Source of the DNA: Alicyclobacillus kakegawensis NBRC 103104
Lineage (GTDB): Bacteria > Bacillota > Bacilli > Alicyclobacillales > Alicyclobacillaceae
Direction of reading: 5' to 3'
Assembly: GCF_001552655.1 (NCBI RefSeq)
Contig: NZ_BCRP01000002.1
Coordinates: 124,001 to 188,000, forward strand
Length of the DNA stretch: 64,000 nt
The first letter of the stretch is position 1. Every line of letters begins with the position of its first letter. The position numbers and the translations under genes were made by a program. The notes below the pieces were generated by a model. The model was not told the DNA's origin. It worked only from the letters and a program-made list of their open reading frames with translations, and made no database searches. Shown in pieces: positions 23,000-26,702 of the stretch.

Positions 23000-24520
23000 A
23001 TGACTCATATTATAAATGAGCATCAGGAGCTTTGCGAGGGGATGCGGGTGGAGCGCGAGGAGTGGGTTCTCAGCATCAAAAACATGATGGAGGCGGGAAT
23101 TCTCATAGACCCGCTGTTGGTCAACACCTATTCCCAGGCAGCTTTTGGCCGGGTTTACGAGCAGGCCTCCGCCATGACCGACAGCCTGTTTCAGCACTTT
23201 ACACACTACGAGCGGATGCCGCAGCTTGAGGACATACCGTTTTCTATCAATCTGGCCCGCAGCGGCTTGTTGGAGACGCTCCTGTCGACCGCGATGTCCG
23301 TCATGCACGAGCAGACGGGCAATGTCATCCCCACGCCGGCGGTGCTCTTGGAAGCCCACCGCCGGGTCTCGGCGTTCCTCTCGCAGCACGGGATGGAAGC
23401 GCTCTATCGCCTGTACTATTGGGTCATCGTCCACGACACCCTGCAGCCCCTGTTCTATCACCGCGAACTGACCGAGGCGGACTTCCTCCAGGCGCGCCGT
23501 CACCACCCGTACCGGCCCGAGAGCTTGGACATGGTGTTGATGCTGGGGCTGGCTGGAGGGATGTTCCGGGTGCGCCAGCGGCAGGGGGAACGGGTGGTCG
23601 GCATCACGCGGCGCGGTCTGAAAATGTACGAGTCTATCCACCAGGTGTTCGTCGATTCGGGGTACATCGGCAAGCGGGTGATGATGTCCTATATTTACCA
23701 ATTTGATCGCGCCGAAAATTTTGACGACCTGTTCAACGCGGTCTTTCCTGAGACGCCGCAGCAGCGGCGCGACTACATCGCCTGGTTGGGCGATTTGCGC
23801 GGCGCCCATGTGTTGGAGGTCGCGTGCGGCACAGGGGCGTTGACGTTCGACAGTGGACTGTACGAACAGGTCGGAAGTTTGGGCATGCTGACAGCTACAG
23901 ATGTGTCGCAGGGGATGTTGGAGCAAGCGGCGCGCAAGTGGCGGCAGTTGGGCAGCCCGCCGCAGGTGGTGCTGCAGCAGGCGTCGGTGGAAAATTTGCC
24001 GTTTGCCGATGCGGTGTTCGATGTGTGCTGCGGCAGCTACTTCATCCACTTTGTCGACGCGCCCCGGGCGCTGGCCGAGATGCGGCGCGTCGTCAGGCCG
24101 GGCGGCTGCGTTTCGATATACCAAGGACTGCAGGTGGACCTCAACCGCCCCTTCTTCCGCGAGTGGTTTGCGCCGATGTTCGAGTTGGCTCGCCGGCGCA
24201 ACGCGGACCGGCCCGCCAACTACATGCCCACGGCCGATCAATTGCGCCAATGGTTTGTGGGAGCTGGGCTGCACAGTCTGGAAGTGGAGTATGTCAACAC
24301 CCCGCTTCGCTTCGAGGACCCGGAGCGGGTGGTGCAGTTTCTGGTGCGCGGGGTCAGTTACTTTCAGATTGAATTGATGGAGCTGCCGTGGGACGACCGC
24401 CGGGCGGTTATCTCCGAACTGGTCGACCGCGGCAAGGATGTTTGCCGCAAGTACCCGGTTTCGGAACGCATCATCGAATTTCCCGGCGTGTGGATGAAAT
24501 CCGTTCGACCTCAACTGTAA
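23000..24520 (+). CDS. Two-part SAM-dependent methyltransferase, 506 aa
   Basis: The C-terminal half (from about residue 265) is a class I methyltransferase: VLEVACGTGALTF (motif I), then LTATDVSQGMLEQA, ENLPFADAVFDVC and EMRRVVRPGG. The N-terminal 260 residues are helical and unassigned; around residues 175-220 the stretch MVLMLGLAGGMFRV...GITRRGLKMY resembles a winged helix. No signal peptide is seen. ATG 23000 has only a GAAGG site 8 bp upstream. Substrate and role are unknown. It could be a regulator-methyltransferase fusion or a small-molecule methyltransferase with a dimerisation domain. Confidence 0.85.
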   Translation: MTHIINEHQELCEGMRVEREEWVLSIKNMMEAGILIDPLLVNTYSQAAFGRVYEQASAMTDSLFQHFTHYERMPQLEDIPFSINLARSGLLETLLSTAMSVMHEQTGNVIPTPAVLLEAHRRVSAFLSQHGMEALYRLYYWVIVHDTLQPLFYHRELTEADFLQARRHHPYRPESLDMVLMLGLAGGMFRVRQRQGERVVGITRRGLKMYESIHQVFVDSGYIGKRVMMSYIYQFDRAENFDDLFNAVFPETPQQRRDYIAWLGDLRGAHVLEVACGTGALTFDSGLYEQVGSLGMLTATDVSQGMLEQAARKWRQLGSPPQVVLQQASVENLPFADAVFDVCCGSYFIHFVDAPRALAEMRRVVRPGGCVSIYQGLQVDLNRPFFREWFAPMFELARRRNADRPANYMPTADQLRQWFVGAGLHSLEVEYVNTPLRFEDPERVVQFLVRGVSYFQIELMELPWDDRRAVISELVDRGKDVCRKYPVSERIIEFPGVWMKSVRPQL

Positions 24521-24583: not shown

Positions 24584-25555
24584 ATGCAGCGGCGAGTCGC
24601 TTTTGTCAGCGCCGGCGCCAACGGAGTGGGGTTTGCGATTGTGCGGACCCTGTTGGAGGCCGGTTATGATGTCGGCTTCACGTACCGCCACAGTCAGGCG
24701 GAGGCGGACGGCTTGCTGAGCCTGGCTGAATCGCTCGGCGTGCGCGCCACGGCGGTGCAGGCTGACTTGCTCGATCAGGGGCAGGTGGAAGACGCGGTCC
24801 GTCGTTGCCTGAGCGTTTTTGGCCGCATCGATGCGTTGGTACATAACTTTGGTCCGTTTGTGTTTGAACGGGTTCCGTTGGCCGACTATTCAGATGAGAT
24901 GTGGCGAAGGATGCTCGACGGCAACCTGAGCACCCTCCTGTGGATGTATCGGCTGGTCGTAGACGGCATGCGCAGGCAGGCGTTTGGCCGTATCATCACG
25001 ATAGGGTTTGACGGTGCCGGCCGGGCCGCGGGTTGGCAGTACCGGGCGGCGTACGCGGCCGCCAAGGCCGGCTTGGCGTCGCTTACCCGCAGCATCGCCC
25101 GCGAGGAGCGTCAAAGCGGGATCACCGCGAACATGGTCTGTCCCGGGGATGTGCGCGGTCCGTGGAAAACCCGGCTGGTCCGCGAGGCCTGGGATGCGCA
25201 CAATCCGCTGGCGCGCGCGCCGGTAGGTGGTGACATCGCCCGTGTCGTGCTTTTCTTGTGCCAGGAGGAGAGCCAGTACGTGAGCGGCACGGTCACCGAG
25301 GTCACCGGCGGCTACGACATTCTCGCCTATGACGATGGACAAGATGTCGTCGAGGAGAAGCGTCGCTTCTCGGTCGGTGAAGAGGTCTGGGTCCACCCGT
25401 GGAAGGCCCTGGCGGTGGTGGAGTCTGTGCACAAAGTGCAAAACCGCTACGCGGTGTACACCGTGCGCGTGGGGCAGCGGCAAGGGGACTTCACCGCCTT
25501 TCAACTCGGCAGCCGCGAGGAAATGGAGGACGGCATGCATGGCACACGTGGATAA
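24584..25555 (+). CDS. SDR-family protein lacking the catalytic Ser, with C-terminal extension
   Basis: A 323-aa protein. The Rossmann NAD(P) loop SAGANGVG (residues 8-15), HNFGP in place of NNAG, and Tyr157-x3-Lys161 (YAAAK) mark a short-chain dehydrogenase/reductase. The Ser normally about 13 residues before the Tyr is absent: that region reads ITIGFDGAGRAAG. After the SDR core (about 250 residues) a 70-residue tail starting FSVGEEVWVHPWKALAVVE looks like an SH3-like beta barrel. AAAGGAGGAC precedes ATG 24584. It overlaps the next gene by 17 bp. The reaction, if any, is unknown. Confidence 0.85.
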   Translation: MQRRVAFVSAGANGVGFAIVRTLLEAGYDVGFTYRHSQAEADGLLSLAESLGVRATAVQADLLDQGQVEDAVRRCLSVFGRIDALVHNFGPFVFERVPLADYSDEMWRRMLDGNLSTLLWMYRLVVDGMRRQAFGRIITIGFDGAGRAAGWQYRAAYAAAKAGLASLTRSIAREERQSGITANMVCPGDVRGPWKTRLVREAWDAHNPLARAPVGGDIARVVLFLCQEESQYVSGTVTEVTGGYDILAYDDGQDVVEEKRRFSVGEEVWVHPWKALAVVESVHKVQNRYAVYTVRVGQRQGDFTAFQLGSREEMEDGMHGTRG

Positions 25556-26702
25556 TTTGCGCCGACACTTTCCCGTGTTAAGGCGCGTGGTGTACCTGAA
25601 CACAGGCAGAGCCGGCGCCCTGCCGGACGAAACGGCGCAGGCGATAAGCGAAGCCTTGGCGGCGCAACTGCACGAAGGCCGCCGCGGCGACAGCTATTGG
25701 CAGACGTTGACGCAGATGCGCCAACTGGTACGCGATGAACTGGCCCACCTGTTTCATGTGCCGGAGACAACGTTTGTGTTGACCAACAGCACCACCGAGG
25801 GCATCCACCTGGCGCTCTGGGGCATCCCGCTGGAACCGGGCGATGAAATCCTCACTACCAACGTCGAGCACCCGGAGGTTGGTCTGCCGGTGGCGGTGCA
25901 GAGGCAGCGGCGTGGCGTCCGCATCCGGGTGCTCGACGGCACTCTGCCGAAGGATGAGCTCTGCCGCCAATTGGAACAGCGGCTGACTCCCCGGACCCGC
26001 GCGTTGGTGTGTTCGCATGTGTCCTACGCGACGGGGCATCGCTTGCCGCTGGAGGCGCTGGTTGAGGTGGCGCACCGTTACGGGCTGTGGGTGGTCGTGG
26101 ACGGTTCACAGGGCGCGGGAGCCGAACCGCTGGACCTGGGCAGTCTCGGCGTGGATCTTTACGCCTTTCCTGGTCACAGGTGGCTGTGCGGTCCGCAGGG
26201 GACAGGAGCGCTGTATGTACGGGCGGATCGGCTGGAGGAGCTGGAGGCCACATTGGTCGGGCCGGCGGCGGTGCGCGACCCGGCGGCTTGGACCCCGGAC
26301 GGACACTATCTCCCGGCCGCCTCGGCCCGCCGCTTTGAACACACGGAAGGGGAGGTCTCGGCCTGGCTCGGTTGGTGGCACAGCTTGCGCTTCCTGCGCG
26401 TGACGGCCGGCTGGGAATACGTGTTCAGCCGCACGCATGGGCTGTCCGGGATGCTGATGGACAAGCTGCTGGATCTGCCCGGAGTCACCCTGGCCACCCC
26501 GCGCGACCAGCGGGCGGGCCTGGTTCACTTCGCCCTGGAAGGGGTGGGTCTGGATGTCGTCCTGCGCGAGGCGCGATCGCGCGATATCGACATCCAGACC
26601 ATCCCGGAGCGCGGGTTGGTGCGCGTATCGACGGCGTTTTACAACACGGAGGATGACATTCTTCGATTCGCGCAGGCGCTGTCTGATCTGCGCCGTGGTT
26701 GA
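25539..26702 (+). CDS. Class V aminotransferase-fold protein with Arg at the PLP-lysine position
   Basis: A 387-aa protein of the NifS/cysteine desulfurase-like fold: YLNTGRAGALP start, TNSTTEGIHLAL, THVEHPEVG-like segment, VVVDGSQGAG (the Asp that contacts the PLP ring). The segment that should carry the Schiff-base lysine reads FPGHRWLCGPQGTGALYV, with Arg214 (AGG, 26178-26180) where relatives have Lys in GHKW. If correct, it should not form the normal internal aldimine. GGAGGA precedes ATG 25539. It is translationally linked to the SDR gene. A catalytic Cys loop like that of NifS is not evident. Confidence 0.88.
   Translation: MAHVDNLRRHFPVLRRVVYLNTGRAGALPDETAQAISEALAAQLHEGRRGDSYWQTLTQMRQLVRDELAHLFHVPETTFVLTNSTTEGIHLALWGIPLEPGDEILTTNVEHPEVGLPVAVQRQRRGVRIRVLDGTLPKDELCRQLEQRLTPRTRALVCSHVSYATGHRLPLEALVEVAHRYGLWVVVDGSQGAGAEPLDLGSLGVDLYAFPGHRWLCGPQGTGALYVRADRLEELEATLVGPAAVRDPAAWTPDGHYLPAASARRFEHTEGEVSAWLGWWHSLRFLRVTAGWEYVFSRTHGLSGMLMDKLLDLPGVTLATPRDQRAGLVHFALEGVGLDVVLREARSRDIDIQTIPERGLVRVSTAFYNTEDDILRFAQALSDLRRG

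Follow-up and report, generated by a model that had tools for sequence, protein, structure and literature searches.

The window, a stretch of 64,000 nucleotides (G000:C2:124001-188000) in the 3.42 Mb draft genome of Alicyclobacillus kakegawensis NBRC 103104, encodes a class V aminotransferase-fold protein (AT) with arginine at the place of the pyridoxal phosphate (PLP) lysine. This AT is most likely a pseudoenzyme, conserved and of a kind that arises repeatedly. We give a probability of about 0.6 to the reading that it is a C-DES-like descendant, has likely lost PLP chemistry and is kept for a second job without a Schiff base. The original prediction had coupled AT with its neighbour, a short-chain dehydrogenase (SDR), as two enzymes that each lack a catalytic residue. 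The AT half of this is real and moderately surprising; the SDR half is ordinary.

Fold and codon 214 of the aminotransferase-like protein

25539..26702, + strand: class V aminotransferase-fold protein (AT), C-DES-like, without the PLP lysine; 387 aa; Pfam, AlphaFold and PDB matches
26178..26180, + strand: AT codon 214, AGG (Arg), at the place of C-DES K223 in the phmmer alignment; AGG in G001, AAG (Lys) in G002

AT scored 168.1 bits against PF00266 (Aminotran_5; gathering cut-off 21.5), and its AlphaFold model had a pLDDT of 95.1. The best PDB matches of the model were C-DES entries (1n2t, 1elq and 1n31; TM 0.89-0.91, 30% identity), which gives the predicted monomer, the form compared, the monomer fold of a C-DES-type C-S lyase. 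Against the curated SufS/CsdA models AT stayed below the cut-offs (TIGR01979, 147.1 vs 475.1 bits; NF008126, 110.4 vs 607). The nearest named record, from Alicyclobacillus shizuokensis NBRC 103103 (L030, genome G001), was 97% identical. The window organism's own genome (G000) has two further homologues, 29% and 33% identical, which we take to resemble SufS- and NifS/IscS-type enzymes. No close AT paralogue was found at E<=1e-40 in any of the 26 AT-bearing genomes of the family.

Arg214, in the context FPGHRWLCGP, aligned with Lys in C-DES 1elq and with Ala in 1n2t (phmmer). By their PDB titles, 1n2t is the C-DES mutant K223A and 1n31 the same mutant in a catalytically inactive state, its cofactor bearing the substrate. 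AT lacks both the Schiff-base lysine of class V proteins, present in 26 of the 33 aligned orthologues (26 from the family and 7 from elsewhere in the class), and the catalytic Lys223 of C-DES-type C-S lyases. Since a Lys-bearing orthologue exists in G002 (74% identical, codon AAG), Arg214 is a substitution. It had been foreseen that lysine-bearing homologues together with a sequencing error would overturn the claim. Such homologues exist, and the error is ruled out, because the independent A. shizuokensis assembly (G001, NZ_BCQV01000005.1) carries the identical codon AGG; with nothing in its favour, an error of sequencing or assembly at codon 214 is virtually excluded. The predicted replacement of the lysine by Arg214 therefore stands.

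The reading frames of SDR and AT, on the plus strand, are both intact and share 17 bp, as predicted, with a GGAGG-type ribosome site recognized by eye ahead of each start. Names such as "aminotransferase" or "cysteine desulfurase" are an unsafe annotation for family members of this kind.

Losses of the lysine and selection after them

AT orthologues were found in 26 of 41 family genomes, as a single copy in each, and all 15 genomes without AT belong to genus g4. Seven of the 26 lack the lysine: Arg was found in five (G000, G001, G011, G028 and G022), Thr in G012 and His in G014. Among more distant homologues, an uneven sample collected by short peptide patterns of which one spans the Arg site, 18 of 18 (L031-L048) have Lys; L030, the A. 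shizuokensis copy, has Arg.

The AT gene tree required two changes of the lysine, also after removal of eight active-site columns. The first of these trees used Thermomicrobium rows and the stripped one class relatives instead. G010, which is cut by a contig end, was omitted from the stripped tree and from both structure alignments, A1 (40 rows, G126 also omitted) and A2 (32 rows). A single clade of all seven Lys-less rows, and with it one event for all losses, was rejected on the AT tree (p-AU 8e-85). On the gyrB+rpoB tree (28 genomes) three changes were needed; G014 (62% complete) has neither marker and no place on this tree. Here G012 grouped with the Lys-bearing G016 (98/99), and a clade of g10 and G012, which are grouped on the AT tree, was rejected (p-AU 0.0052). 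The SDR tree required four changes, but was poorly resolved. These counts are parsimony on unrooted trees, in which regain is possible; every outgroup row has Lys. Judged from these sequences, two losses at the least are well supported, and a third is probable. As an alternative to separate losses, the AT gene may have been transferred, or a relaxed active site may have converged so as to pull rows together.

The pocket around codon 214 was compared at the following positions, for which we assume the roles known from class V enzymes:

25869..25871, + strand: AT His111, presumed PLP-stacking, kept; His in 25 of 26 Lys-bearing rows and in G000/G001, Asp or Ser in the other five Lys-less rows
26100..26111, + strand: AT Asp188...Gln191, presumed PLP ring contacts, kept (orthologue alignment)
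26622..26624, + strand: AT Arg362, presumed substrate carboxylate contact, kept; in 26 of 26 Lys-bearing rows, Cys only in G014

Between G000 and G001 (dS 0.30), dN/dS was 0.059 for AT, vs 0.127 for SDR and 0.094 for the upstream methyltransferase (MT); MT values for pairs with G004 were discarded, because protein and DNA were out of register. AT evolved at the same rate in the window lineage as in G002 (24 vs 21 unique changes, p 0.77, outgroup G008), and all eight AT rate comparisons gave p >= 0.45. AT is not decaying here, as had been argued. From 60 conserved columns the window lineage departs at two (13 and 214) and the Lys-bearing G002 at four, and none of the 13 differences between G000 and G001 falls on the listed conserved columns.

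The other five Lys-less rows depart at 11 to 13 of the 60 columns, with His111 and Ser159 gone in all five and Gln191 in four. W215, L216, C217, G218 and P219 are kept in all seven Lys-less rows, and the frame is intact in all seven genomes. Among the five, dN/dS was computed for the g10 pairs, where AT reached 0.17-0.23, about twice the SDR value (0.08-0.12); the Lys-bearing pair G097/G078 also reaches 0.18. Purifying selection on AT clearly persists past the loss of the lysine, and is weaker in g10. AT has the marks of a pseudoenzyme: its orthologues keep the catalytic residue, the window lineage lost it, and purifying selection continues.

Altered pockets occur also in some Lys-bearing rows, with Tyr111 in G007 and with Asn110 and His191 in G017. 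The G017 protein (L065) has Pro159 as well, in a genome that alone in the family has no SDR match.

The SDR partner and the gene cluster

24584..25555, + strand: short-chain dehydrogenase (SDR) of a 3i4f-like subfamily without the usual Ser; 323 aa; adh_short_C2, 158.3 bits; 3i4f, E 1.9e-64, TM 0.91 over the 242-residue chain
25007..25009, + strand: SDR residue 142 (Phe), the usual Ser place, in GFDGAG; 33 family rows, Phe 8, Tyr 17, Ser 7, Cys 1; 14 rows of other Bacilli, Phe 13, Tyr 1
25052..25066, + strand: SDR Tyr157...Lys161; Tyr and Lys in 33/33 family rows; in other Bacilli Lys in 14/14, Tyr in only 3/14
25328..25552, + strand: SDR C-terminal tail, 75 aa, with four predicted beta strands (residues 267-303 of the structure model)

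Tyr157 and Lys161 of the SDR are kept and the usual Ser place holds F142, as predicted. What did not hold up is the claim of a second, parallel case of a lost residue. No Ser was found at this site in 26 of 33 family orthologues, in any of 14 from other Bacilli, or in the best PDB match, 3i4f. The protein has the score and the Asn-Tyr-Lys set of a classical SDR (158.3 bits; N114, Y157 and K161) without its catalytic Ser. All 33 family members share Asn114, Tyr157 and Lys161, and Asn114, Gly141, Trp151 and Lys161 occur in all 47 rows (33 family, 14 other Bacilli). The subfamily was detected in 80 of 200 class genomes (E<=1e-52) and in 40 of 41 family genomes (E<=1e-55). The alignment covers 33 of those 40, with seven g4 genomes left out, and the active site was read in 14 non-family loci out of the 80 class genomes with the SDR.

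By this comparison of sequences, the missing Ser is an old and common trait of the subfamily, not a lesion of the window gene. To judge from its Asn, Tyr and Lys, the window SDR, as part of this Ser-less subfamily, most likely binds NAD(P) and is functional. Because absence of the Ser is normal there, the "coupled pair" of substituted enzymes is mostly coincidence. The proposed comparison with homologues gave a split answer: the lack of Ser is usual in the subfamily, and Arg214 is shared with A. shizuokensis, with Lys in G002 and in most other orthologues. None of the seven Lys-less genomes has Ser at the SDR site; among the Lys-bearing genomes for which there is an SDR row, seven of 18 have it, and these are concentrated in g3, g5 and g7.

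In other Bacilli, Tyr157 is replaced by Phe in 11 of 14 rows, as in 3i4f. These SDRs without Ser and with Phe for Tyr (L122, L123, L125-L127 and L130-L135) keep Asn, Lys, Gly141 and Trp151; from their sequences they are perhaps non-classical or non-catalytic. YtkK may be a B. subtilis relative of the window SDR.

The unusual tail noticed earlier, and taken then as SH3-like, is real, and its 75 residues are predicted to form a small beta domain of four strands. It had no Pfam match over the cut-off. Tails of at least 64 aa were found in seven of 33 family rows (G000, G001, G002, G009, G013, G014 and G023), with and without the AT lysine, and the long tail is therefore not tied to its loss.

The best NCBIfam match of the SDR was TmpR, a bifunctional dihydropteridine/dihydrofolate reductase (NF012208), at 163.5 bits vs a cut-off of 325. 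A role as stand-in dihydrofolate reductase (TmpR/FolM-like) was rejected on this score and on the presence of FolA in the window genome. In the family, FolA-type reductases were found in 15 of 41 genomes and ThyA in 11. All 11 ThyA-bearing genomes have a FolA match (partial in G025), which leaves no such function for the SDR to replace.

The SDR and AT genes follow a third gene:

23000..24520, + strand: methyltransferase (MT), upstream gene of the cluster; 506 aa; C-terminal half UbiE-like, N-terminal ~250 aa without a Pfam match over the cut-off

SDR and AT are adjacent in 24 of the 26 AT-bearing family genomes, which supports a functional link. The exceptions are G017, which has no SDR match, and G010, where both ends are cut by contigs; the SDR contig of G010 carries the start of an AT. 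MT lies upstream of SDR in 16 of the 26, the window included, and directly upstream of AT in G017. Within the stretches examined it was not seen in g2, g10, G007, G013 and G014, and G015 had a partial match. Eight g4 loci were examined and have the SDR alone, with neither AT nor MT. An SDR without AT in these loci and AT with MT but without SDR in G017 indicate that neither always needs the other, and the absence of AT from all g4 genomes shows that its job is dispensable. Matches to MT at E<=1e-40 numbered up to eight in some family genomes (G004).

Explanations and known systems

AT would descend from a C-DES-like PLP enzyme. Its Lys changed to Arg before the window organism and A. shizuokensis diverged, as the alignment and the codons (AGG vs AAG in G002) show. 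With Arg no internal aldimine can form, and the ancestral PLP chemistry would most likely be lost or nearly so, given the chemistry of PLP and the inactivity of the C-DES mutant K223A. Afterwards AT stayed beside the SDR gene under strong purifying selection. A second job free of the Schiff base is most likely, because other lineages of the family also lost the Lys and kept the protein. We infer a non-catalytic role, for instance that of a partner protein, structural or regulatory in kind, for the co-translated SDR or for the MT encoded nearby. The conserved pocket, still intact in the window lineage, argues against a pure scaffold, which would have no need for it. The fairly shallow divergence from A. 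shizuokensis (dS 0.30) counts against the pseudoenzyme reading.

That the lysine was dropped repeatedly could be explained, tentatively and at somewhat less than even odds, if the Lys-bearing orthologues are already bifunctional, combining PLP chemistry with a cofactor-free service to SDR or MT, and some genera keep only the latter. The AT of the window would then stand at the first step, with one codon changed in an intact pocket, and those of g10, G012 and G014 further along, with the pocket dismantled. The route from enzyme to pseudoenzyme would be open to study in living orthologues.

A changed chemistry, in which AT with Arg214 still uses PLP or PMP held non-covalently, would fit the other highly conserved pocket positions, which are intact in G000/G001 under strong purifying selection. 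C-DES K223A still holds PLP-amino acid adducts, going by the PDB titles of 1n2t and 1n31. The nucleotide-sugar 3-dehydratases E1 and ColD, described in PMC8987622, have His in place of Lys and work with PMP. As a base, however, Arg falls far short of Lys and of His. In addition, His111 is gone in 5/5 and Gln191 in 4/5 of the other Lys-less lineages, so that cofactor use is not the trait that every lineage kept. We regard a changed chemistry as unlikely.

Slow decay, with the module losing its AT step, g4 having lost the gene already and the Lys-less genes on their way out, would agree with the 15 g4 genomes without AT, with the lack of MT beside SDR in g10 and G014, and with the raised AT ratio in g10 (0.17-0.23, about twice that of SDR). 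Against it, all Lys-less pairs for which dN/dS was computed stayed far below 1, the frames are intact in 7/7, the window lineage shows no gain in rate, and g10 kept AT through three species; we hold decay to be quite improbable. Class V enzymes are dimers, and AT might instead pair with a Lys-bearing paralogue and form the Lys-less half of a heterodimer, as in SPT1/SPT2 of eukaryotic serine palmitoyltransferase, whose Lys-less subunit is essential (PMC6148460). The window genome offers only the two homologues at 29% and 33% identity as partners, and none of the 26 family genomes has a close paralogue at E<=1e-40, which makes a heterodimer very improbable.

The pseudoenzyme reading can be set beside several known systems. 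C-DES (1elq, 1n2t and 1n31) has the whole fold in common with AT (TM 0.90, 30% identity), and the Lys-bearing orthologues of AT conserve the presumed cofactor-site positions His111, Asp188, Gln191 and Arg362; C-DES has Lys223 where the window AT has Arg214. SufS/CsdA (TIGR01979 and NF008126) share the fold and are among the best NCBIfam matches, but AT scores below their cut-offs, is without the PLP Lys and has no Cys in residues 338-362, where we would expect the mobile-loop Cys. For the SDR, the closest system is the 3-oxoacyl reductase-like 3i4f of B. thuringiensis (43% identity over the model match), which also has no Ser and shares the GF(D/Q)GA motif, but has Phe in place of Tyr157 and no tail (264 residues).

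PLP-fold proteins kept without the lysine or its chemistry have been described elsewhere. SPT1 (LCB1) of serine palmitoyltransferase is a subunit kept without the lysine (PMC6148460); it belongs to a different family and has an active paralogue as partner, whereas here orthologues of AT differ and no close paralogue was found. The TSB-like pseudoenzyme of eudicot plants, a relative of PLP enzymes, is kept to activate a partner enzyme (PMC12727527). Unlike AT, it is a tryptophan-synthase-beta-like paralogue of an active TSB and has lost other residues. Sequences without the PLP lysine, rare known cases aside, were discarded from the set of the B6 database, according to its paper (PMC2748086), and such filtering may help these proteins stay unnoticed. 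Searches of the open-access literature yielded no paper on the window AT, on YtkK or on Alicyclobacillus class V proteins that lack the lysine.

To our knowledge, Lys-less PLP-fold proteins are known mostly as paralogues beside an active copy, as in SPT1 and TSB-like. Here the difference lies between orthologues of one single-copy gene, and at least two lineages, probably three, have lost the lysine and stand at different stages. One could then ask directly what use a PLP enzyme has beyond its catalytic one, and follow the order in which its active site is dismantled.
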